From the IMG/VR virus record IMGVR_UViG_3300010354_000413, positions 1 through 29,443 of that record: a stretch of DNA of 29,443 nt. One strand, written 5' to 3'. Source of the DNA: a virus. Every line of letters begins with the position of its first letter. The first letter of the stretch is position 1. Position numbers and translations under genes: made by a program. This document shows, one piece after another, positions 14,449 to 27,169 of the stretch. The notes beneath the pieces were generated by a model, which searched no databases, was not told where the DNA came from, and worked only from the letters and a program-made list of their open reading frames with translations.

Positions 14449-14928
14449 ATGCAATCTAATCAAAAGATAGTTAAATATCCTGCATTAAATGAAAAAGAAT
14501 TTTATGAGGTATATTTAACTTTAGATAATTTACTGCGAACTAACGAAAAAATTTTGTCTGATAAAGCTATTAAATTATTAGCTGCATATATGGCAAAACC
14601 TCTTGAATTTGCAATACAGTTTAATAATAAGAAAACTATTGTAGATAGATCCACAGGAGAGAAAAAAACACTAGCAGTTGAATTAGGAGAAACTATAGGA
14701 ATACTACCAAGTTATACTTATTATTTGATGAAAGAGTTACGTGATAAAGATACTCTTGTTGTTGATGAAGATAACTTGTTAAGACCTAATGAGCAGTTAA
14801 CTAAATTACGGGTTGGTATAAAAGCAGCACTATCTAAGAATGATATTGTGCAATTTGATTATTTGTTTAAAGCTAAAATTGTAGAAGACGATGATGCAAA
14901 TGAATCAAATTTACCAAAAAGTAGCTGA
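14449..14928 (+). CDS. Unknown first late-operon protein
   Basis: 159 aa. The middle reads like a helix-turn-helix: LSDKAIKLLAAYMAKPLEF, then a strand with DRSTGEKKTLAVELGETIGI and a helix SYTYYLMKELRDKDTLVVDEDNLLRPN, which resembles a winged-helix unit with a recognition helix and wing. The C terminus is acidic (VEDDDANESNLPKSS). As the first gene after the structured leader it might be a regulator of the late operon, but the family is not recognised. It overlaps the next gene. Confidence 0.68.
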   Translation: MQSNQKIVKYPALNEKEFYEVYLTLDNLLRTNEKILSDKAIKLLAAYMAKPLEFAIQFNNKKTIVDRSTGEKKTLAVELGETIGILPSYTYYLMKELRDKDTLVVDEDNLLRPNEQLTKLRVGIKAALSKNDIVQFDYLFKAKIVEDDDANESNLPKSS

Positions 14929-15160
14929 TGAATTAGGTATAGATGTAGACAAAGTTAAATGTGTAGGAGAGCATGCATTTTCTTGGTTAAGATTACGAAT
15001 AACTAATTTGGATATTAAAGAATCTAAGATATTGTTTCCCGGTTTGGGAACTTTTAGTTTGATTATATCAAAGATGAAAAAGGTAGTTACTTCGGGTAAT
15101 CTATCTAAAAATGACAAAGATAAAACCATTACATTAATTAATAAATTTGACAAGAAATGA
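14900..15160 (+). CDS. HU/IHF-like small DNA-binding protein
   Basis: 86 aa from MNQIYQKVADELG (further in-frame ATGs at 14891 and 14894 are equally possible). The order is helix-helix followed by ILFPGLGTFSL (residues 44-54), which matches the HU/IHF signature of a beta strand leading into G-x-G-T-F. After this come short basic strands where HU has its DNA-gripping arms, but the arm is shortened. IHF-type subunits are known among crAss-like phage genes. It could compact or bend phage DNA during packaging. The stop overlaps the next ATG by 4 nt. Confidence 0.62.
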   Translation: MNQIYQKVADELGIDVDKVKCVGEHAFSWLRLRITNLDIKESKILFPGLGTFSLIISKMKKVVTSGNLSKNDKDKTITLINKFDKK

Positions 15161-15849
15161 AAGGTATAGTTTCAAAAGGAAGTGAGTATGAGTCTATGGC
15201 TACTCAAGATTTAAACGGAACAGCAAGTAAACTAATTGCTGATCCTACATCTAAAGAAGAAATAGAAAAAAGATTGTTAGAAGATTTGCATGTGCAGCAA
15301 GAAATTTCAGAATACAATATTGATTTACAAAATGCACACTTAGATAAGAGATTTACTGATAAGTTTTTTTGTGGTAAATTTGTAATTGTTAAACTTGAAA
15401 AGATAAATTGGATTATTCCATCAGAATATAATCCTGATTTACACACGGTAAATCCATTATATTATCTAACAGTAACAACACCAGATTTTCCTAAAGGTAA
15501 ACTTGTAAAAAATCCTTTACCTTATGGTTATAAAGGTACTGTTGTAGCAATAGGAGATGAGGTTTCTAAGTATAGAGATGATAATACTCTTATGCCTATT
15601 AGAGAAGGAGATACTGTTGAGTTATCTTGGTTTGATCTTAAAGAACATAGATACTATCCTGATAAACAAAAGGTAGATCAAATTACATTAGATAGTCCTT
15701 ATGCACCTAACTATGAAGGATTTGCTAAAATTCCTGCACAATTAATTGAAGTAATTGTTCCGGCCGGTGAATATCAAAATGTTTATGGTAATCCTAATGA
15801 ACTATTTAAAGTAGAAGTAAATAAAATTACTTTAGATGATATGATGTAA
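15157..15849 (+). CDS. GroES-like co-chaperonin, enlarged
   Basis: 230 aa. Residues 74-201 follow the GroES plan: a first strand KFVIVKLEK (74-82; compare the cellular DRVIVKRKE), a long loop in the place of the mobile loop (83-125), then KGTVVAIGDEVSKYRD (126-141), which parallels RGEVLAVGNGR, then IREGDTVELSWF (148-159), parallel to VKVGDIVIF, and a closing strand AQLIEVIVP (194-202). Cellular GroES is about 95 aa. This protein adds an N-terminal helical extension of about 70 residues and a C-terminal tail of about 28. Phage co-chaperonins such as T4 gp31 are also divergent and have enlarged loops. It would cap the GroEL-like ring encoded 1.4 kb downstream. The assignment is by motif alignment by eye, and the homology is distant. 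Confidence 0.66.
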   Translation: MKGIVSKGSEYESMATQDLNGTASKLIADPTSKEEIEKRLLEDLHVQQEISEYNIDLQNAHLDKRFTDKFFCGKFVIVKLEKINWIIPSEYNPDLHTVNPLYYLTVTTPDFPKGKLVKNPLPYGYKGTVVAIGDEVSKYRDDNTLMPIREGDTVELSWFDLKEHRYYPDKQKVDQITLDSPYAPNYEGFAKIPAQLIEVIVPAGEYQNVYGNPNELFKVEVNKITLDDMM

Positions 15850-15869: not shown

Positions 15870-16340
15870 ATGAAACAAGATGCTATTGATTTTACTCCAT
15901 TGAGTAAATTAAAAATGAAAAAGAAAGAAGTAGTAAAAGAAGATGAGTATGAGGATGATGATGAAACTGAAGTAAAATCTGCACAAGGTTATGCAAAGTT
16001 TTTAAGCATGCTTTATAAAGCTAAAGAAGATATTCATATAACTCATAATGTGCAAAAATCAAAAGATTTATCTATGCATGAAACATTAGGAGCATTGTAT
16101 GAAGCATTTGAAGACAACATAGATATTCTTGTAGAAACTGTGTTTGGTATTTATGGTGCAACTGAATTGTCTTTTACTGCAAAGTTAATGCAGAATCCTA
16201 TGGAAGATTTAAAAATGTTGTATAAACAAATTGAATCTGAGCGTAAAATGTTTAAAGAATCCTGGATTCAAAATCGTATTGATAATTTCCAAGAACAAAT
16301 TGCACTTGCGTTATATAAGTTACAGTATGTTACGTGTTAA
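15870..16340 (+). CDS. FTPLS-motif protein of chaperonin cluster
   Basis: 156 aa, not recognised as a family. Residues 8-12 are FTPLS, the same peptide found twice in the scaffold-like protein at 24401. It is followed by a lysine run (KLKMKKKE) and an acidic run (EDEYEDDDETE), then an all-helical body (SMHETLGALYEAFEDNIDILVETVFGIYG; MEDLKMLYKQIESERKMF). The tail-helix layout is that of a small scaffold or assembly factor. It is followed by a hairpin/T-run at 16375-16398. A role in capsid assembly or as a cargo protein is inferred from the motif and context only. Confidence 0.65.
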   Translation: MKQDAIDFTPLSKLKMKKKEVVKEDEYEDDDETEVKSAQGYAKFLSMLYKAKEDIHITHNVQKSKDLSMHETLGALYEAFEDNIDILVETVFGIYGATELSFTAKLMQNPMEDLKMLYKQIESERKMFKESWIQNRIDNFQEQIALALYKLQYVTC

Positions 16341-16410: not shown

Positions 16411-17196
16411 ATGAAATTATTAAATATATTAAATGGTTGGACTAACTTAATTCAAAGTAAAACAATTGGAGTAAAGTCTTACATAGAAGACCAAGCAGCT
16501 ATAAGATTAGAAATTTGTAATAGTTGTGAATTAAACGTAAGAAATATATGTGATAAGACTAAAGTAACTACACATGTAATTACAAATGAAGAAGTTTATG
16601 GGTGTAGTTGTCCGCTATCAGCAAAAACAATGGCACAAGATGATCATTGTCCGGCCGGTAAATGGATGCCAATGTTAAATGCAGAAGAATGGCAACATGC
16701 ATTACAAATAAGTAACTATGACAAATTATCAGTAGTTGTTGATAATAATATCATAATGTTTTTTAATAATAAAAAAGATGGTATATTTGTATCAATTGAT
16801 GGTAACATTGGTTATAGTTATAAACACATGGCTACATTAGCAAAAAAGAAAAAATTAATAACTGTAGCAATGTTAGATGCAACTAAACTACTAACAGTTA
16901 ATGAAACAACAAATAGTTTTAAATTTGATGATAGTTTAATAAGTTATGTAAAAACCATAACTAATACAGATATTATATTTTGGGTTCCTAAATCTATGAT
17001 GTCTAATATTTCTATGGGAGCATTTATACAAAAGTGTGAGTTATTCACGGCAAATCTTACAAATGCAACTAATAAGAATATAAAATATTTCTGTGGATTA
17101 ACCAATGATACAAGATTATTAGTAGAATTTTTTGAAAACCGTGGCATATATAAGGAAGGAAGTATTATTTCAGAATCAATAAAAGACAAGATTTAA
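16411..17196 (+). CDS. Cysteine-rich putative metal-binding protein
   Basis: 261 aa. The N-terminal part has six cysteines in the pattern C36-x2-C39-x7-C47-x17-C65-x-C67-x12-C80, ending in HCPAGKW, which suggests a zinc- or iron-sulphur-binding domain. Similar cysteine-PAGKW segments occur in several Bacteroidota phage proteins of unknown role, as far as I recall. The C-terminal two-thirds is a mixed alpha/beta domain (KLSVVVDNNIIMFFNN; DIIFWVPKSMMSNISMGAFIQKC) with no catalytic signature. It ends 3 nt before the GroEL gene, so the two are translated together. Function unknown; a substrate adaptor or virion component is conceivable. Confidence 0.68.
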   Translation: MKLLNILNGWTNLIQSKTIGVKSYIEDQAAIRLEICNSCELNVRNICDKTKVTTHVITNEEVYGCSCPLSAKTMAQDDHCPAGKWMPMLNAEEWQHALQISNYDKLSVVVDNNIIMFFNNKKDGIFVSIDGNIGYSYKHMATLAKKKKLITVAMLDATKLLTVNETTNSFKFDDSLISYVKTITNTDIIFWVPKSMMSNISMGAFIQKCELFTANLTNATNKNIKYFCGLTNDTRLLVEFFENRGIYKEGSIISESIKDKI

Positions 17197-17199
17197 ACC

Positions 17200-18852
17200 A
17201 TGATGATTGATCCAAATCCAAGACAATTAAAGTATGGCAATGATGCTAGACAAGCTTTAATTAAAGGAGCAAATGCAGTAGCTAAAGCTGTTGCAGTAAC
17301 ATTAGGCCCAAGAGGAAGGCATGTTGTTATTGACAAATCTCCTCGTTCAGGTATTATAGTAACAAAAGATGGTGTAACTGTAGCTAAAGAAGTTAATCCA
17401 ATTGACATTACTGAAAATACAGGAGCACAATTGTTTAAAAAAGCTGCAATACACTCGGTAAATTATGCCGGGGATGGTACAACTACTGCTACAGTATTAG
17501 CTCACTACCTTTTAAATAAAGGAATGGAAGCTGTAGAAGAAGGAGGTAATCCTGTTGAAATTGCAAGAGGTATGCAAAAAGCATTATTGAGTGTAGTAGA
17601 ATATGTTAAATCTATAAGTACATCAATAACTACATTAGAAGAAATACAAAAAGTAGCTTATATATCATGTAATAATGATAAATTGCTAGGAAATCTTGTA
17701 GCAGATGTATTATACAAAGTTACTAAAGATGGATTAGTGCATGTAGAAGAATCAGCTACAGTTAATTCTTCATTTGATATTGTTAAAGGTATGAAATTTG
17801 ATACTGGAACCAATACAACATCAAGATATTTTGTAACTGATGCTGAAAAAATGGTATGGGAAAAAGAAAAATGTATAATAATTGTATCAGAAGATTCAAT
17901 ATCAAGTATGAATCAACTATTACCATTATTAACAAAATCTAATGAATTAGGATTACCATTACTTGTTATTGCTAAAGACTTTGAAGATACTGTAATTACT
18001 AATGTAGTAGCTCAGTTTTTAAGAGGTCAGATAAATTGCTGTTTAGTACAAGCTCCTGGATGGGGTGATGTTCGTAGAGCAAGATTATTGGACATTGCTG
18101 CAGCTACAGGTGCTGTAGTATTTGGACCTAACACACCAATATCATTAAATCATGAAAATGCAATTGAATATGGTGGTAGTGCTAAAACTGTAATTGTAAA
18201 AGAAGATAGTTTAGTAATTATAGAAGGAGCTGCATTATCAGATAATGGTATTTACAAATCTAATTATGATAAACACGTAGAATTAATTATTAGTGAAATA
18301 GATATTACAGAAGATGAATATCAACTTGACATACTAAAAGGAAGATTGGCAACATTAGTTGGAGGCAGTGCTGTAATTAAAGTAGGAGGTTATACTAAGG
18401 AAGAAATAGGAGAAAAGAAAGATAGAATAGATGATGCAGTCAATGCTGTGAAATGTGCAATGAGAAAAGGAATTGTATCAGGTGGAGGATCTGCATTACT
18501 AAAAGCAATAAAATCTATTAATGTTAATAACTTTGATGTAGTAAATAATGATGAAAAAGTTGGTGCTCAATTGGTAATGCAGTCATTATACGAACCAATT
18601 AAAATAATATTATCTAATGCAGGACTTGATTATGAAAAAATTATTAATAATATTATGGAAAATTTGGATCAAGCTCCGTTATACGGATATGATGCAAAAG
18701 ATATGGAATATGTTAATGATATGATTAGTAAAGGAATAGTAGATCCAGCATTAGTAACTACAACTGCATTAGAAAGTGCTGTAAATGTAGCTGCAATGAT
18801 GCTTACTACTGATTGTTTAATTAACTACTACATACTTGATACAAATGGCTAA
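17200..18852 (+). CDS. groEL: Phage-encoded GroEL chaperonin
   Basis: 550 aa, full length compared with about 540-548 aa for cellular GroEL. It folds proteins inside a double- or single-ring ATP-driven chamber. All ATPase signatures are present: VTLGPRGRHVVIDK (33-46), TKDGVT with D57 (GroEL D52), AGDGTTT with D92 (D87), and RIDDAVNA with D412 (D398), followed by GIVSGGGSALL. The apical substrate/GroES-binding face keeps hydrophobic positions (RYF 209-211, LLPLL 240-244, TNVVAQFL 267-274) but has a changed, two-residue longer loop, GTNTTSRYF, where GroEL has GYLSPYF. The usual C-terminal GGM tail is absent; the chain ends YYILDTNG. Start at MMIDPNP. It lies in the virion operon, overlapping the next gene by 8 nt. 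Likely clients are capsid or other virion proteins. The identity is certain; the client is inference. Confidence 0.98.
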   Translation: MMIDPNPRQLKYGNDARQALIKGANAVAKAVAVTLGPRGRHVVIDKSPRSGIIVTKDGVTVAKEVNPIDITENTGAQLFKKAAIHSVNYAGDGTTTATVLAHYLLNKGMEAVEEGGNPVEIARGMQKALLSVVEYVKSISTSITTLEEIQKVAYISCNNDKLLGNLVADVLYKVTKDGLVHVEESATVNSSFDIVKGMKFDTGTNTTSRYFVTDAEKMVWEKEKCIIIVSEDSISSMNQLLPLLTKSNELGLPLLVIAKDFEDTVITNVVAQFLRGQINCCLVQAPGWGDVRRARLLDIAAATGAVVFGPNTPISLNHENAIEYGGSAKTVIVKEDSLVIIEGAALSDNGIYKSNYDKHVELIISEIDITEDEYQLDILKGRLATLVGGSAVIKVGGYTKEEIGEKKDRIDDAVNAVKCAMRKGIVSGGGSALLKAIKSINVNNFDVVNNDEKVGAQLVMQSLYEPIKIILSNAGLDYEKIINNIMENLDQAPLYGYDAKDMEYVNDMISKGIVDPALVTTTALESAVNVAAMMLTTDCLINYYILDTNG

Positions 18853-19384
18853 AATGTTTTCTGTTAATGGAAATTCAGTTGAACCTACGGCAGAAATTCT
18901 TTTAGTTCCTGAGTTTTCTAAGTTGTGGGATTCTGATACTACAGCTAGTAAGATAAAAGCAAGAATTGCATTTGCTTACATATACCATAGTCTTGATCCA
19001 AATAGTTTATATGTAAATTATTTTGATAGAGAAAGTCAGGCATTAAATGATTTCTTTGAAGGAAAGTCTATACCGGCTATAGTAAAAGAAGCATTTAATA
19101 AATACAAAGCATTAATAACAACACCAGAACAAAGATTACTTGAAGGTTCTTTATCTGCTGCTGATAAACTTGCTGATTATTTTAGTACAATTGATTTTTC
19201 TGAAATAGACGAAAAAGGAAATTTAGTTCATGACCCTCATAAATTAATGGCAAGTTTGCAAAAAGTTTCAGGAGTAATAAAGTCATTAAAAGAATTACGT
19301 GAACTTATGGAAAAAGGTCAAGATGAAAAAGAAAGTAATAGAGGTAATGCTAAATTAAATATGTTTGATGAATCTGATGATTGA
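18845..19384 (+). CDS. Putative small terminase-position protein
   Basis: 179 aa from MAKMFSVNGNSVE; a TTG 9 nt earlier is unlikely. The ATG overlaps the end of groEL (ATGGCTAA). The chain is largely helical, with PEFSKLWDSDTTASKIKARIAFAYIYHSL and a C-terminal coiled-coil-like helix (KLMASLQKVSGVIKSLKELRELMEKG) before an acidic tail (FDESDD). Its place directly before TerL, with a 1-nt overlap, is that of the DNA-recognising small terminase subunit in many tailed phages. No DNA-binding motif is evident, so this is a positional suggestion only. Confidence 0.6.
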   Translation: MAKMFSVNGNSVEPTAEILLVPEFSKLWDSDTTASKIKARIAFAYIYHSLDPNSLYVNYFDRESQALNDFFEGKSIPAIVKEAFNKYKALITTPEQRLLEGSLSAADKLADYFSTIDFSEIDEKGNLVHDPHKLMASLQKVSGVIKSLKELRELMEKGQDEKESNRGNAKLNMFDESDD

Positions 19385-21774
19385 TGAATATTGAAAAAAC
19401 TATAAGACAAGTTGCATATCCTACAAAATTTGCATACGAATGGATTGATAATAATGTAGCAGAATTGTATAAAAATTACAATTCTGAAATTCCATTAAAA
19501 CATATTGAGGAAAACAGAAATGAATATGGTGAATTAACTAAAATATCACTTGACAATCCTGTAAGAAACTTAATGTGGGAATGGATTAAGTTTAATGATA
19601 CATCTTATTTTACACCAGCTGCAAATTCATTTAGACATTCCGAAGAAGAAGTAAAAGGTACTAATTTAAAACCTAAATATACATCTCATTTACCTGGAAC
19701 TCAGAAATACAGGGATTTTTGGTTAGAAGAAAGAAAAAGATGTATAGAAGGATTTGAACCAATTATAAATGGTAAACCTTGTGGTATAAAAATATCAGGA
19801 GAATTATACTTTTATTGGAATTACTGCCGTATTGGTAGAGTGGCTACATTAAGTACAGGAGAAACAACAGAGATTGTTGATTTTCCATTACCTTGTGCAA
19901 TGGATTATTATTGGTTTATGGAGTTAGATGCAAGAGAAAATCCATCAAAATATGGATTACCTATTGCTTATAAACAATCTATAATACTTGCAAAAGCCAG
20001 ACGTTTAGGATTTTCTTATAAAAATGCTGCAGGAGCTACATACAAATATACATTCTATAAAGAAATCAAGGTAGCTATTGTTTCACAAACAGGTGAAAAA
20101 GGTGTAGAAACTTTTGAAAAATGTTTGCAAAATATTGATTTTCTTACTGAATATACAGAGTTTGGTGGTCCACATATTACACGTGTACTTGATAAAACAG
20201 CACAAAAAGGTGTAATTAAATCTGGTACTAAAGACAAAAAAGGAAATGAAAAAGGACGCAAGTCAATGATATATACTATATCATTACATAATAGACCTGA
20301 TAAAGCATCAGGTGCCGGTTGTGTACGTGTTATATTTGAAGAAGCAGGTATGATTAATAATCTTGCAAAAGCCTGGACATTTACAGAACCTACTTTAAGA
20401 TCGGGTAAAATTTATAAAGGAATTGCTATTATATTTGGTACTGGTGGTGATATGGTAGATGCAAAAGGAAATGCAGGAGCATCAAGAGATTTTGCTGAAA
20501 TGTTTTACAATCCAAAAGCTTATAAATTAGCATCATATAAAAACATATATGAAATTGGACCTGATTCAGGTGAATGTGGATTGTTTTTTAATATTACTTG
20601 GTTTCGAGAAGGTTCTACATTTACAGATCCTAATGGTGAATTACATCAGGCATTAGATAAAAATGGTAACATTAAACCTTGGGTTGCTGAAATAGATTTA
20701 AATCAAGAAAGAAAGATACAAGCCGATAAAGATAAAGATGCTTACGAAACAGAAATAACACAGTATTGTAAAACACCACGTGAAGCATTTTTAATAACTA
20801 GCGGTAATACATTTCCTACTGCAGATATTGAAGCAAGACTTGACAGATTATTAACTACAGATGATTTGAGATATTTAAGCACGGTTGGTAGTATTTCAGA
20901 ATCAGATGGAAATTACGAATTTAGGCCAGATATTGAAAGAAAGTATAAATCAATTGATAGATTTCCACATCCACATAATCTTAAAAATAGAGAAGGTGCT
21001 CTTGTTATCTATGAACAACCCAGAAAAATACATGGTGCTATTCCTTATGGTGCTTATATTGTAAGTGTTGACCCTATTGGTGAAGACTCAAATGGAGGTG
21101 AATCATTAATTGCAGTCTATGTATTAAAAACTGCAAAATATCCATTAGAAATTGGATATGATGAAGTAGTTGCTCAATATGTAGGAAGACCTGCAATAGA
21201 CCCAATAGCAGCACAAAATAATATAGTGTATAAACTTGCAAAATATTATAATGCATTAGTAACTCATGAAAATGATAGATCAGGTTCTGAAATTAGAACA
21301 TTCTTTTTAGAGAAAAATGCATTTGAATATTTATTAAAACCACCATCAGATATTGTAGAACAAGCTATACCAAATTCAAAAACTAATCTTCGTAAAACAG
21401 GTCACTCTATGTCATCTGAAAGAATGAAAGAACTAGGAGAAATGTATGTAAATAGATGGTTAAAAAAGAGTAGAGGTACAGATGAATTTGGAAAAACTAT
21501 TACAAATCTTGATTTAATACGTGATATTGCACTACTACAAGAGTTGCAAAATTACAATAGATATGGTAACTTTGACCGAGTAATGGCATTTATGGGTGCA
21601 ATATTACAGATGCGACAATTAGAATCAAATGAAATAAGAGATTCTAAAAATGCAGCCGAAGCTATGAGTTATTTTGATGCACATTTAACAAGATTTGCAG
21701 CAAAAAAAGAAAAACAATCATTAACTGATGAATTAAGTGGAATGACTGATTCAAGAAAACATTTATATAATTAA
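19384..21774 (+). CDS. terL: Large terminase subunit
   Basis: 796 aa from MNIEKTIRQV. It is the ATP-driven DNA-packaging motor with a nuclease domain. An N-terminal region of about 200 aa precedes the ATPase. The Walker A-like loop is ILAKARRLGFSYK (about residues 200-212), the variant form with R-R-x-G-x-S used by many TerL proteins. Walker B is VRVIFEEAG (about 314-322) with the catalytic glutamate pair. The C-terminal nuclease begins YIVSVDPIGED (about 558-568), providing the first metal-binding aspartate, with VTHENDRSG further on. It ends 1 nt before the portal gene. Crassvirales TerL proteins have this size and these motifs. The ATG overlaps the preceding stop (TGATG). Confidence 0.94.
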   Translation: MNIEKTIRQVAYPTKFAYEWIDNNVAELYKNYNSEIPLKHIEENRNEYGELTKISLDNPVRNLMWEWIKFNDTSYFTPAANSFRHSEEEVKGTNLKPKYTSHLPGTQKYRDFWLEERKRCIEGFEPIINGKPCGIKISGELYFYWNYCRIGRVATLSTGETTEIVDFPLPCAMDYYWFMELDARENPSKYGLPIAYKQSIILAKARRLGFSYKNAAGATYKYTFYKEIKVAIVSQTGEKGVETFEKCLQNIDFLTEYTEFGGPHITRVLDKTAQKGVIKSGTKDKKGNEKGRKSMIYTISLHNRPDKASGAGCVRVIFEEAGMINNLAKAWTFTEPTLRSGKIYKGIAIIFGTGGDMVDAKGNAGASRDFAEMFYNPKAYKLASYKNIYEIGPDSGECGLFFNITWFREGSTFTDPNGELHQALDKNGNIKPWVAEIDLNQERKIQADKDKDAYETEITQYCKTPREAFLITSGNTFPTADIEARLDRLLTTDDLRYLSTVGSISESDGNYEFRPDIERKYKSIDRFPHPHNLKNREGALVIYEQPRKIHGAIPYGAYIVSVDPIGEDSNGGESLIAVYVLKTAKYPLEIGYDEVVAQYVGRPAIDPIAAQNNIVYKLAKYYNALVTHENDRSGSEIRTFFLEKNAFEYLLKPPSDIVEQAIPNSKTNLRKTGHSMSSERMKELGEMYVNRWLKKSRGTDEFGKTITNLDLIRDIALLQELQNYNRYGNFDRVMAFMGAILQMRQLESNEIRDSKNAAEAMSYFDAHLTRFAAKKEKQSLTDELSGMTDSRKHLYN

Positions 21775-21775
21775 C

Positions 21776-24298
21776 ATGAATACAATTTTAGCAGCCAGAC
21801 CAGATGACAGAAAAAAAGAAAAAGATGAAGAATGGGGTAAACAATATGTTGCCTTCATTGCAAGTCATGCTAACAATAATTATGATTCTGATTGGCAAGT
21901 TAGATATCGTAATTATAGGTATATAAATAATCAATTGTATCAAGAAGAGTTTCAACAATACTGTGATCCGTTTGATTGGGATAAAGGCAAAGGACTTGAC
22001 TATGTCCAACCGCTTAATAAATTACACAATGTTGTAAATGTTTTACGTGGAGAAGAACTACGCAGATTGTTTAAATATTCTGTAGTTGATGTGTCACCAA
22101 ATGCAACAAATGAAAGATTACGTAAAGAAAAACGTGATTATGCTAAACGTATTGAATTTGAATTAGAGAAAGCTGTTAAATTGCAACAAGCAGAAATGCA
22201 AAAAGAAGCTGCAATTAAAATGAGTGAGTATGGTGATATTCAAAATCCAGAAGAACTGAAGCAAATTGAACAACAAGTTATGCAAGAACTTCAGGCAAAA
22301 GAACAATACATTGCTAATTTTGATGAAATTAGAGAAAAATATAAAAACTACATTACTGCTCAAGAAAAAGCAATGAATAAACTGCTAAAACAGTTTATAA
22401 ACCATAAGCAGATAAAGTTTAAAAAGAATACAGGATTTTTTGATGCTGTAGTTTCTGCCGGAGAATTTATAAAAGTAGAACTTGTAAATGGAATGGTAGA
22501 ATTAGAACTATTAAATCCATTAGGAGTTACATATCATAAATCACCTGAAATAGAATGGGTACATAAAGGAGATTATGCATGTTATAAACGTGAGATGTCA
22601 ATAAAAGAAGTTAAAAGATTGTACGGTGATTACCTTAGTGATGAAGATGTAAAATTATTAACTAATATTAGTCAAACTGTTTATGGTCTTGACGCAAGAG
22701 TTCATAGTAGAGATGCAGAATCTCCTTCGCATTTTCAAAAATTGAACTCAGGTTACATGTCACAATACTATAATGCAAACGTAATTCATCCTGGCGGATT
22801 TGGATATGGTAATGCTACAAGTGATACTGTAAATATGTGTACAGTTTATGATTGTTTTTGGGTTACTGAAAGATACGTTGGATTGTATACTTACCTTGAT
22901 GAGTTTGGTTACGAACAAGCTGAATTTGTTGACCATAAATTTAAGGCTCCTAAAACTGCAACTAAGTTTAAAGAAACTGATGAACTAGGTATTACTAAAT
23001 TTTACTGGGAATGGGAAGATGAATTAGGACCACATAAATTATACTACACATGGATTCCATATTTGTACAGAGGGTCTGTAATTAACAATAATATTTATTG
23101 TAAAATTGAACCAATGCCTGAGATATTTCAGGTTACTCCTGATAATCCTTACGATATAGAATTGCCAATATATGGTGCATCTTATAATAATAGAAATGCT
23201 CCATTTATGTCAGTAGTTGATTACATGCTACCTTGGTATAAAATATATCTAATCATAATGTCAAAGTTTTTAGCTAATGTTGCTAAAGATCATGGAGGAT
23301 TTACGGCTATTAATACTTTATTTCTAAGTGATAAAGTAGATGTAGAAACATCTATACAATATGCAATGAAAATGGGATTTTTGCCATTTAATCCTTTGCA
23401 AAATTCACAAGGTGCAGGTTTAGTAAATAATATTAAGCCGGCCGAGTATGTACAAGTATCTAATGTTCAAAATATAAGATACTATGCAGAACTTGCTAAG
23501 TTTATTGAAGATGAGATATTTAAAGCAGGTGGTGTTCCAAGAGAAAGATTAGGACAAACTGCACCAGGTACTAATGTATCAGATAATAGACAAGATTTAA
23601 TGCAATCTGCTTATATTACAGAATACTTGTACTATACACATGAACTTATATGGGAAGCTGCATTACAATCTGTTACATTATTACTAGCTGCAACTGTTGA
23701 TAGAAACCATCCGTATGTACGTGACATACTATCAGATGACGAAATTTCTATAATTGAAGCAGGAACTATTACAAAAAATTCAAAATTTAGATTTCAATTA
23801 TCTAATAATAGTGAAAGTACTCGTATTAAAGATATAAGTGAACAGTACATGCAAGCAATGATTCAAAATGATAAAACTAATTTATCAACTTTCCTTAAAA
23901 TGTTACGTAAAGGTGATATTAGTGGAGAATTAATTCAAGAAATAGAATTAATGGAAAAGAATGTTGCGGATCGCCAACAACAAATGGAGCAACAACAAAT
24001 GCAGTTACAACAACAGCAAATTGAAGCTCAAAAAGAAGCTGCTGATAAACAATACAAACAATTGTACGATCTTAAACGTATGGAACTTGATACTAAAGAA
24101 CGCATAGCTATGATTGGTTCATTCTCACGTCAACAAGATCTTGATGTAGATGATAATGGTATATATGACCAAATGGAAGCAGCTCTTGCTATGAAAGAAA
24201 CTCAACAAAAAGATAGAGAATTAGATTTAAAAGAACGTGAAATTGAAAATAAACGTAGAATTGAACAAAGTAAACTTAATTCAAGTAAATCTAAATAA
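21776..24298 (+). CDS. Portal protein
   Basis: 840 aa, the ring through which DNA enters the capsid and to which TerL docks. The N-terminal half contains the segment WQVRYRNYRYINNQLYQEEF and the block LNKLHNVVNVLRGEELRRLFKY, typical of crAss-like and P22-like portals. The large central portion carries aromatic-rich strands (FYWEWEDELGPHKLYYTWI). The end is a long, glutamine-rich coiled coil (ADRQQQMEQQQMQLQQ at about residue 730-745) and a basic-acidic helix rich in Lys/Glu, which is the barrel/crown part. It starts 1 nt after the TerL stop, the conserved TerL-portal order. The assignment rests on order, size and composition. Confidence 0.88.
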   Translation: MNTILAARPDDRKKEKDEEWGKQYVAFIASHANNNYDSDWQVRYRNYRYINNQLYQEEFQQYCDPFDWDKGKGLDYVQPLNKLHNVVNVLRGEELRRLFKYSVVDVSPNATNERLRKEKRDYAKRIEFELEKAVKLQQAEMQKEAAIKMSEYGDIQNPEELKQIEQQVMQELQAKEQYIANFDEIREKYKNYITAQEKAMNKLLKQFINHKQIKFKKNTGFFDAVVSAGEFIKVELVNGMVELELLNPLGVTYHKSPEIEWVHKGDYACYKREMSIKEVKRLYGDYLSDEDVKLLTNISQTVYGLDARVHSRDAESPSHFQKLNSGYMSQYYNANVIHPGGFGYGNATSDTVNMCTVYDCFWVTERYVGLYTYLDEFGYEQAEFVDHKFKAPKTATKFKETDELGITKFYWEWEDELGPHKLYYTWIPYLYRGSVINNNIYCKIEPMPEIFQVTPDNPYDIELPIYGASYNNRNAPFMSVVDYMLPWYKIYLIIMSKFLANVAKDHGGFTAINTLFLSDKVDVETSIQYAMKMGFLPFNPLQNSQGAGLVNNIKPAEYVQVSNVQNIRYYAELAKFIEDEIFKAGGVPRERLGQTAPGTNVSDNRQDLMQSAYITEYLYYTHELIWEAALQSVTLLLAATVDRNHPYVRDILSDDEISIIEAGTITKNSKFRFQLSNNSESTRIKDISEQYMQAMIQNDKTNLSTFLKMLRKGDISGELIQEIELMEKNVADRQQQMEQQQMQLQQQQIEAQKEAADKQYKQLYDLKRMELDTKERIAMIGSFSRQQDLDVDDNGIYDQMEAALAMKETQQKDRELDLKEREIENKRRIEQSKLNSSKSK

Positions 24299-24400: not shown

Positions 24401-25633
24401 ATGAAAAGACCAGAAGAACAATTGATAATGAGTGAAGAAGACAAGTTCACTCCATTATCATCAATATTAAACGAAGAGTCTTATGTAAAACCGGAAGAAC
24501 CTTCAGTAGTTGATAGTGATAATTCTAAAAAAGAAGTTACAAAATCTACTGAAAATATTCCAAATGAGGCTGATAAGTTTACACCATTATCTGAGGTAGG
24601 TAAAAATAAACCTAAAAATGAAGATAATGAAAATATTGATGAAGATGTAGAAGAAGATACAACTGAAGAAGATTCTGACGTAATTGAAAATGAAGAAGAG
24701 GAAGAATCTAAATCAGTTAATATTGAACTTTCAGAAGTATTTGATTTTTTTGTAAATAATAATCTATTAAATGTACCTGAAGATTTTAAATTTGATGGTA
24801 CAGAAGAAAAGTTTAATCAAGCATTGCAATATGATCAGTTGTTACGTGATCAAATGGCATTAGCTAAAATTGAACAAAGTATTCAAGATGAAAATGTATA
24901 CAAATTAATTGAACACGGTATAAATGGTGGTAAATTTTCTGATGTTAGTTCATTGTTTAATGCAATGCAACAACAAGTTAATTTAGAAAATATTGATATA
25001 TCTAATGAAAAACAAGCAGAAGATATATTATACAAATATTATACTGAAGTAAATAAGTTTACACCAGAACGTGCAAAGAGATTTGTAACAATTACAAAAG
25101 AACAAGATATTTTAGAAGAAGAAGCTAAAATTGCTGTAGATCATTACAAAGAGTTCTATCAAAAAGAACAAGTTCGTATTGATAAAGAAGCAAAAGAGAA
25201 AAAAGCTTATTCTGAAAAAGTATTTCAAGAAAAAGTTAAAGGAGTACAATCAGCTGCTAGAGAATATGGTTACAATGGAACAGTAGCTAAAAATTTAGTA
25301 ACTCTTATGTCACCTGTAATTGATACTGAAAATAGTAACAAACCTGTATATAAAGAAGATGGTCAACCGATGTTGTGGTATGAAGTAGTATTAGATCAAA
25401 TTCAAGATAATCCTGCACATCTAACTCAACTTCTTGGAATTATACAAGGATATGATGCTAAAGAAGGTTTTGCATCTATAAAGAAACAACAAGAAAAAGT
25501 TAAAGAATCAACAAATAATAAATCTACTTTTGACATGTTTAATAAAATTAAACGTACTAAAGGTGGAACAGCTATAGGAGGAGAAAATGTTAAATATGTT
25601 CCTCCAGCACCTAATTCGTATGAAACTCAATAG
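24401..25633 (+). CDS. Scaffold-like protein with FTPLS repeats
   Basis: 410 aa between portal and major capsid protein, the classical place of the scaffolding protein. The N terminus has two DKFTPLS motifs (residues 14-20 and 58-64), joined by a very acidic, disordered segment (EDDNENIDEDVEEDTTEEDSD-like, residues 73-100). The rest is a highly charged helical region with coiled-coil character (AVDHYKEFYQKEQVRIDKEA) and a basic C terminus (KIKRTKGG). This acidic-helical-basic plan matches scaffolds, which steer capsid assembly and are later removed. Start at MKRPEEQLIM; an internal ATG (MSEEDKF) lies 9 residues in. It ends TAG, 24 nt before the capsid gene. Confidence 0.78.
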   Translation: MKRPEEQLIMSEEDKFTPLSSILNEESYVKPEEPSVVDSDNSKKEVTKSTENIPNEADKFTPLSEVGKNKPKNEDNENIDEDVEEDTTEEDSDVIENEEEEESKSVNIELSEVFDFFVNNNLLNVPEDFKFDGTEEKFNQALQYDQLLRDQMALAKIEQSIQDENVYKLIEHGINGGKFSDVSSLFNAMQQQVNLENIDISNEKQAEDILYKYYTEVNKFTPERAKRFVTITKEQDILEEEAKIAVDHYKEFYQKEQVRIDKEAKEKKAYSEKVFQEKVKGVQSAAREYGYNGTVAKNLVTLMSPVIDTENSNKPVYKEDGQPMLWYEVVLDQIQDNPAHLTQLLGIIQGYDAKEGFASIKKQQEKVKESTNNKSTFDMFNKIKRTKGGTAIGGENVKYVPPAPNSYETQ

Positions 25634-25657: not shown

Positions 25658-27169
25658 ATGAATTTTACTCTTAGAGATCTTCGCCCTACGGAGGTAACTT
25701 CAGGTCTTGCCGGATCAAGTTTTAACTCCACTCACCTTATCCGTACTTATGGTGTGGATAAACCTCATGATCTATCAGCCAATGCACAAAACATTGCTAT
25801 GATGTTTGCAGGTACTGACCGTTACAATGACAAACCTTACGTAGGTATGTTAGAAGGTAAAGGTAAAAAGTTGGCACTAACATCACGTGATTACACTTGG
25901 AAATTGACAGGTCACATGAAACAAAAAGCAACTGTAGTTGAAGTATTAGAAACTACAGATCGCCCAGGCCAAAATTTTCAAGAATTTAAAGTAGTTCTTG
26001 ATACAGACCAGTATAAATATCCTGATGTTCTTATTGGAGAAAATGAGGATTATCCTGTAGAAATCGTAGGTAAACCTGAACGTGCTGGTTTGGGATATAT
26101 CTATACATTAGTTATTCAAACTGATGATCCCGCACTTTACTTTCCTGTTGACTTGCTTCAAGTTGGTAAAAGATTCCACAAAGTATCTACATCTGTAGCA
26201 GATGAGATGAATCAGGATTATGGTACTATTCAGTTTAACACTATTTTTGAACTTCGTTCTCAAATGGGTAATGTTGCTGAAGAACTACAATTTACTGATA
26301 AAGCTCTACGTGTAGATAAAAACAGTGGTGACCAAGTTCAAGTATTGAAACACTGGCGTGTACCTTATCTTGATAATCAAGGTAAAACATATTACAACTT
26401 TATGCCATTGGCAGAAGCTGAAATGTGGAATCAAATCTATGCTGATATTGAATGGGGTCTTGTATTTGGTAAGTCAAGTACTCGTCAAGTAAAAGGTTAT
26501 CTTAAAAAGACTGGTCCTGGTTTGCGTCAGCAATTAGATTCTTCTAATAAACTTTACCATAATGGTAATCTTACACTAATTAGACTTGAAGAATTTCTTT
26601 CTTCTATCTATCGTGGACGTACTGATGCTAATCCAAGTCAACGTAAAGTAACTCTTGATACTGGTGAGATGGGTGCATTGCTTTTTGACCGTATGGTTGC
26701 ATCTGAAGCATCATCTTTCACAACTGTTGATAGCTACTTTATTTCAGGTAAAGATCCTCGTTATCTTTCTTACGGTGCACAATATACTCACTATCGTGGT
26801 AAAAACGGTCTTGATGTAACTGTAATGCTTAATCCAGGTAAAGATAATTCAGACATCTCTACTAACATGCATCCACGTTATCCAAATATTCCTGTAAATT
26901 CTTGGAGAATGGATATTCTAGATCTTGGTACAACTCGTAACTACGATGGTGATATTAAAGATAATATGCAAATGGTTTGTGAAAAATTTGCTGACTACTA
27001 TTATGTATCTACAGGTAAATGGGATAAGAAAACCGGTATGCCTATTTCTGATGGTGGTGAAGGTAATTCTGCAATTGGTGGTTACACTTGTAAAGTAGAA
27101 AAATCTTTTGGTCTTATGATTCGTGACCGTTCTCGTATGGCAGTAATTGATATTAAATTTGACGTATAA
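25658..27169 (+). CDS. Major capsid protein
   Basis: 503 aa, the HK97-fold shell protein of a crAss-like phage. It opens MNFTLRDLRPTEV, a start resembling other Crassvirales capsid proteins, and is close to their usual length of about 490-500 aa. The chain has the expected mixture of long strands, loops and a late conserved core (RYPNIPVNSWRMDILDLGTTR; VEKSFGLMIRDRSRMAVIDIKFDV at the end). Codons such as CGT, ACT and CTT are more frequent than in the minus-strand genes, as expected for a very highly expressed protein. It follows the scaffold-like gene and precedes other virion genes. It is the likeliest client of the GroEL/GroES-like pair. Confidence 0.92.
   Translation: MNFTLRDLRPTEVTSGLAGSSFNSTHLIRTYGVDKPHDLSANAQNIAMMFAGTDRYNDKPYVGMLEGKGKKLALTSRDYTWKLTGHMKQKATVVEVLETTDRPGQNFQEFKVVLDTDQYKYPDVLIGENEDYPVEIVGKPERAGLGYIYTLVIQTDDPALYFPVDLLQVGKRFHKVSTSVADEMNQDYGTIQFNTIFELRSQMGNVAEELQFTDKALRVDKNSGDQVQVLKHWRVPYLDNQGKTYYNFMPLAEAEMWNQIYADIEWGLVFGKSSTRQVKGYLKKTGPGLRQQLDSSNKLYHNGNLTLIRLEEFLSSIYRGRTDANPSQRKVTLDTGEMGALLFDRMVASEASSFTTVDSYFISGKDPRYLSYGAQYTHYRGKNGLDVTVMLNPGKDNSDISTNMHPRYPNIPVNSWRMDILDLGTTRNYDGDIKDNMQMVCEKFADYYYVSTGKWDKKTGMPISDGGEGNSAIGGYTCKVEKSFGLMIRDRSRMAVIDIKFDV

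Follow-up and report, generated by a model that had tools for sequence, protein, structure and literature searches.

A GroEL gene and a divergent GroES gene in the late operon of a crAss-like phage

The window analysed here is the whole 29,443-nucleotide stretch (29.4 kb) of the virus record IMGVR_UViG_3300010354_000413, and it carries two divergent gene blocks. The minus-strand block encodes a DnaB-like helicase, a DNA polymerase, and a Sak4-like protein. The plus-strand block begins at ~14.4 kb, and its genes for the terminase large subunit (TerL), the portal protein, and the major capsid protein (MCP) match crAss-like PHROGs, in agreement with the crAss-like packaging and virion operon recognized in an earlier note on this DNA. 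Together with an HU/IHF-like gene, a gene-86 family member, and the two divergent blocks themselves, these matches place the window in the Crassvirales, according to a published list of features (PMC7886860). Its TerL is only about 25-32% identical to those of all named crAss-like genomes.

GroEL, GroES, and the virion genes are all carried by one strand, the plus strand. The small HU/IHF-like gene (14891-15160), which precedes GroES in the cassette described below, was assigned to its family by profile and position, its profile finding crAss001 gp14, "protein HU," at 1.7e-11. The next ORF (15157-15849) starts within the stop codon of this gene, with a 4 nt overlap, and encodes a divergent GroES/Cpn10-like co-chaperonin of 230 aa. 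It is followed by a gene for a DUF5856/phrog_858 protein (15870-16340); its profile weakly matches crAss001 gp7, annotated as a putative DpsA (7.9e-4), and the placement of this gene relative to TerL differs among lineages. A Cys-rich small-domain protein with homologues in relatives is then encoded at 16411-17196; it is 261 aa long in the window versus about 86-95 aa in near relatives, its C-terminal 170 aa forming an unexplained extension. The GroEL gene (17200-18852) overlaps, as the earlier note had reported, the gene preceding TerL, a member of the gene-86 family (18836-19384; phrog_16390 and profile family) for which a role as small terminase subunit, TerS, has been proposed (PMC7886860). 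This overlap is 8 nt if the putative TerS starts at its likely ATG (18845), or 17 nt if it starts at TTG 18836. The putative TerS gene directly precedes that of TerL (19381-21774; phrog_6681; likely start ATG 19384), the two meeting in a TGATG overlap. Further downstream lie the genes for the portal protein (21776-24298; phrog_6547), a structural-block protein conserved in near relatives (24401-25633), and the 503-aa MCP (25658-27169; phrog_11589).

The ORF at 17200-18852, open across 550 aa on the plus strand, encodes an intact group I chaperonin, GroEL (Cpn60), in a late operon with the TerS, TerL, portal, and MCP genes. It matches Pfam Cpn60_TCP1 (PF00118; 8e-60, 203 bits for a cut-off of 34.3), phrog_5725, chaperonin groEL (3e-122), and the NCBIfam GroEL subfamily NF000592 (504.7 bits, cut-off 397), and falls below the stricter TIGR02348 equivalog cut-off (498 vs. 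582), as expected for a divergent member. The equatorial, intermediate, and apical domains are complete, residues 8-542 aligning to E. coli GroEL, and the AF2 model covers the full length with confidence (mean pLDDT 86). The earlier description of a full-length class I chaperonin with its ATPase residues was right in both coordinates and residues, as judged from the profiles and the alignment to the E. coli protein: D57, D92, and D412 align with E. coli D52, D87, and D398, and the TTT motif (E. coli 89-91) corresponds to T94-T96.

The earlier note had overlooked a GroES gene in the same operon. The unannotated ORF at 15157-15849, which lies 1.35 kb upstream of GroEL and is separated from it by two genes, belongs to a Cpn10 family and encodes a divergent GroES. 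Taken alone, its product matches Pfam Cpn10 with an E-value of 0.041 (14.4 bits, below the 21.1 cut-off) and phrog_3188, co-chaperonin GroES, with an E-value of 0.0055, and these are its best interpretable Pfam and PHROG matches. Searching the phage collection with tblastn gave no match for this candidate, and phmmer against the PDB returned a chance hit alone. An iterated profile from the ORF reaches the annotated Elemovirus GroES and a Cpn10-like ORF that neighbors GroEL in Bacteroides phage DAC23 (6e-4 to 8e-4). Moreover, a profile of the window-type family, built from homologues in near relatives, aligns with 47 ordinary Cpn10 sequences over 99 columns (hhalign probability 96.5, P 1e-9), and one family member (L186:407-778) scores above the Pfam Cpn10 cut-off on its own. 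The AF2 model of the protein, of moderate confidence (pLDDT 74), has T4 gp31 as its top structural match (Z 8.1 and 7.1; rmsd 2.9 over 80 residues), followed by GroES chains; the thirteen best chains found with VIA-align are all gp31, GroES, or Cpn10 (Z 6.2-8.1), the best Z of 8.1 being at the edge of the values given by common folds. The model displays an N-terminal helix and, in a stretch of moderate confidence, a long loop (residues about 83-122) that exceeds that of GroES and contains no clear IVL tripeptide.

A second, shorter GroES family (~120 aa) is encoded at this position in some 36 loci, including Cellulophaga phage phi14:2. Its members carry a GroES-like mobile loop, DGGLVLSDN, with an LVL/IVL-like motif, and the family matches Cpn10 with a probability of 96.4; crAss001 gp15, annotated as "putative 10kDa chaperonin," is one of its members (9e-14). 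The window-type and phi14:2-type profiles match each other weakly when compared directly (probability 65), each reaching ordinary Cpn10 separately. The gene between GroEL and TerL, another candidate for GroES given the Elemovirus annotation, was ruled out, as it matches the gene-86/TerS family and not Cpn10. Elemovirus itself (L006:5580-6122) has two Cpn10-like genes, one beside GroEL and the other directly before TerL on the opposite strand.

The same genes recur in other crAss-like phages, usually in the order HU/IHF, GroES, (Cys-rich small gene), TerS, [GroEL], TerL, portal, and MCP. While a scan of viral contigs with the window GroEL as a single protein found no relative, so that alignment-based scans were needed, a search of crAss-like genomes for GroEL of the kind proposed in the earlier note did find it in two annotated records and in many environmental loci. 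Its suggestion that GroEL is unusual in a crAss-like packaging operon does not hold, since both phi14:2 and the uncultured phage cr108_1 have a GroEL annotated upstream of terL. IMG/VR loci were selected by TerL alone. With the TerLs of the window, phi14:2, and cr108_1 as queries, GroEL was found at most 6 kb upstream of TerL in 39 of the 47 loci that had TerL and at least 4 kb of upstream sequence, a share that is no census because the query set contains two other GroEL-bearing genomes, and GroEL and a GroES-family gene occurred together in 37 of the 47. A second scan, centred on nearer TerLs, found GroEL in 3 of 36 loci. Some lineages thus commonly have the GroEL arrangement, whereas in others it is rare. 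Of the two genes, GroES is the more constant, being present without GroEL in several lineages, while GroEL comes and goes. In the nearest relatives of the window by TerL (49-54% identity), GroES is present and Cpn60 was detected nowhere in contigs of 58.9, 59.6, and 83.5 kb, which are possibly incomplete; as a rule, this virion type therefore probably does not require GroEL. The MCP encoded by L248 is 60% identical to that of the window, yet its GroEL is just 30% identical. In four other loci (L061, L273, L283, and L077), GroEL is intact and TerL is split into several ORFs, which could reflect introns, frameshifts, or stop-codon reassignment.

Two of the named genomes allow a closer comparison, both from the Asinivirinae (Steigviridae, Crassvirales). 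In phi14:2 (Akihdevirus), the annotated GroEL g105 is encoded on the late strand, ahead of TerS and TerL, as in the window, and a GroES-family ORF, g096, lies just before TerS; however, eight or more small genes separate GroEL from terL, and g105 is 34% identical to the window GroEL and lacks part of the region corresponding to E. coli 460-480. The annotated GroEL of cr108_1 (Pipoluvirus rarus), gp_22570, is likewise found upstream of TerS and TerL in a genome with the IHF-GroES-TerS cassette, and is 33% identical to the window GroEL, with a shorter equatorial domain. In crAss001, the GroES-family gene gp15 immediately follows HU and precedes the TerS-family gene and TerL, as in the window, but it is of the shorter family and no GroEL was found in the 49 kb examined.

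The position of GroEL is labile: depending on the locus, the gene precedes TerS, lies between TerS and TerL, or follows TerL. In L178, L179, and L185, it lies ~2.4 kb downstream of TerL. This lability would fit a reading in which GroEL served early or general host takeover, through stress protection or the folding of replication enzymes or injected proteins, the vicinity of TerL being a permissive insertion slot. Consistent with this explanation, GroEL is outside the packaging block in Callevirus and elemo phages, and in near relatives the slot that separates the Cys-rich gene from TerS is filled by other ORFs (L170:6364-9453, L172:8427-9214, and L173:5133-5627), two of which begin like phage lysins as judged from reading their sequences. 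Against it speak the large environmental clade, where GroEL sits between TerS and TerL in 37 of the 38 ordered cases of the first scan, and genes that overlap on the same strand, so that we consider a takeover role improbable.

As to the origin of the window GroEL, its closest single sequences are bacterial, with 43-44% identity, which could suggest a recently captured host gene, or an assembly join, with no function in the phage. In two trees, however, it forms a long branch beside the crAss-like L129 and L130 (support 0.63 and 95), outside all sampled bacterial GroELs, and it is thus not nested within a single host genus; such nesting, with host flanks, is what the earlier note had named as a refutation. 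In addition, its GC, GC3, and codon usage resemble those of TerS and TerL, its gene overlaps its neighbor, and homologous arrangements are present in independent contigs, making a chimeric join unlikely; capture or artifact is by now largely refuted and very improbable. One large crAss-like GroEL clade is well supported in both trees (1.0 and 100), and the data are also compatible with grouping all crAss-like GroELs in a single clade (AU p 0.55), while constraining the window GroEL among the Bacteroidota is 47 log units worse, though not formally rejected (AU p 0.11). The tree shows the absence of a close or recent donor rather than an origin. MT835992 (L003), the best BLAST match among phage records, was rejected as an example of a phage GroEL, since it clusters with a Eubacterium GroEL (support 100) and its record probably consists of bacterial DNA.

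Both the apical and the inter-ring surfaces of the window GroEL are altered. Relative to E. coli, an apical segment reads GTNTTSRYF, with Y199 and L200 replaced by T, P202 replaced by R, and a two-residue insertion, a loop seen in none of the other crAss-like GroELs displayed; V264 is A and L259 is I, whereas F204, L234, L237, and V263 are kept. Inter-ring positions differ as well (A109E, R452K, E461D, S463E, and V464K). Finally, the GGM tail is absent. The earlier note had read the apical loop and the tail loss as adaptation to a specific client. Both features are real, but the latter is no sign of a special client, since it is general in crAss-like GroELs (49 of 50) and also occurs in some bacterial ones, the tail being present in 50 of 59. 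As for the loop, the apical surface of GroEL binds both substrate and GroES, and client adaptation is hence just one possibility.

The T/T pair at Y199/L200 could indeed point to a GroEL that works without a lid, holding or unfolding virion proteins, while the phage GroES partners the host GroEL. A precedent exists in Pseudomonas phage EL, whose gp146 is a phage-encoded group I-like ring, as the window GroEL would be; this protein is 22% identical to GroEL, has no known GroES partner, and does not use E. coli GroES (PMC7185714). The relatives that commonly have GroES without GroEL would also fit. Conversely, of the hydrophobic apical positions through which E. coli GroEL touches the lid, most are preserved (L241, L244, I266, V270, and F211), and the co-occurrence of GroEL and GroES in the first scan argues for a pair. 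A lid-free GroEL is accordingly judged unlikely, if somewhat less so than a role in host takeover.

The explanation that we favor, and consider fairly probable, is that the phage GroEL and GroES constitute a two-part folding chamber acting on virion proteins late in infection, with the MCP as main client. The window GroEL would form the ATP-driven ring and the product of 15157-15849 its lid, the two binding each other, and the longer lid loop and the altered GroEL apical loop may be matched to one another. As both genes belong to the late operon with TerS, TerL, portal, and MCP, the chamber would be supplied while virion proteins are produced in bulk. Arguing against this explanation are the sub-threshold Pfam score of the window GroES, its lack of a clear IVL tripeptide, the moderate confidence and borderline Z of its model, the two genes that separate it from GroEL, and the near relatives in which no GroEL was detected. 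Phage GroES/GroEL pairs are already known (PMC7185714), and T4 provides the precedent: gp31, the best structural match of the window GroES, stands in for GroES and provides a larger chamber for the capsid protein gp23, of roughly 56 kDa (PMC3012670; PMC6318259). By analogy, the longer lid loop would fit an enlarged chamber, and the 503-aa MCP is most likely its main client, much as gp23 is for gp31. T4, however, borrows the host GroEL, whereas the window encodes its own, and the window GroES differs from gp31 by its 230 aa, with an N-terminal helix and a longer loop.

A wider scenario is put forward more tentatively, as somewhat short of probable. A steady, gp31-like GroES would be ancestral in the packaging-operon cassette of a large part of crAss-like phages, while GroEL would be a modular addition that has repeatedly been gained, lost, relocated, or replaced. 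In one clade, the GroELs devoid of the inter-ring segment (E. coli about 461-482) would form single-ring chambers matched to their own lid and MCP. In the large crAss-like clade, the 22 sequences sampled are indeed missing E. coli positions 463-467, together with most of 461-482, a segment with inter-ring contacts, and judging from this deletion these proteins may be single-ring chaperonins; the GroEL ORFs of L010-L065 (e.g., L019:8277-9746) are in this clade.

The two cassette genes are already annotated separately in a few genomes, and crAss-like GroEL has been annotated before. Among the open full texts searchable for GroEL or chaperonin with crAss-like phages, no paper describes the cassette; its spread, and the identification of the conserved gene after IHF as GroES in the lineage of the window, thus appear to be undescribed in the searchable open literature. 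These observations raise the question of why close relatives, whose capsid proteins are about 60% identical, differ in whether they require a GroEL of their own, and the cassette would be a source of natural GroEL/GroES pairs in which the apical and inter-ring surfaces are altered. More generally, they suggest a testable rule for a very abundant group of phages, namely that crAss-like phages supply their own lid, and in many cases the complete chamber as well, for the folding of their virion proteins, which would explain the conserved "hypothetical" gene that follows IHF.
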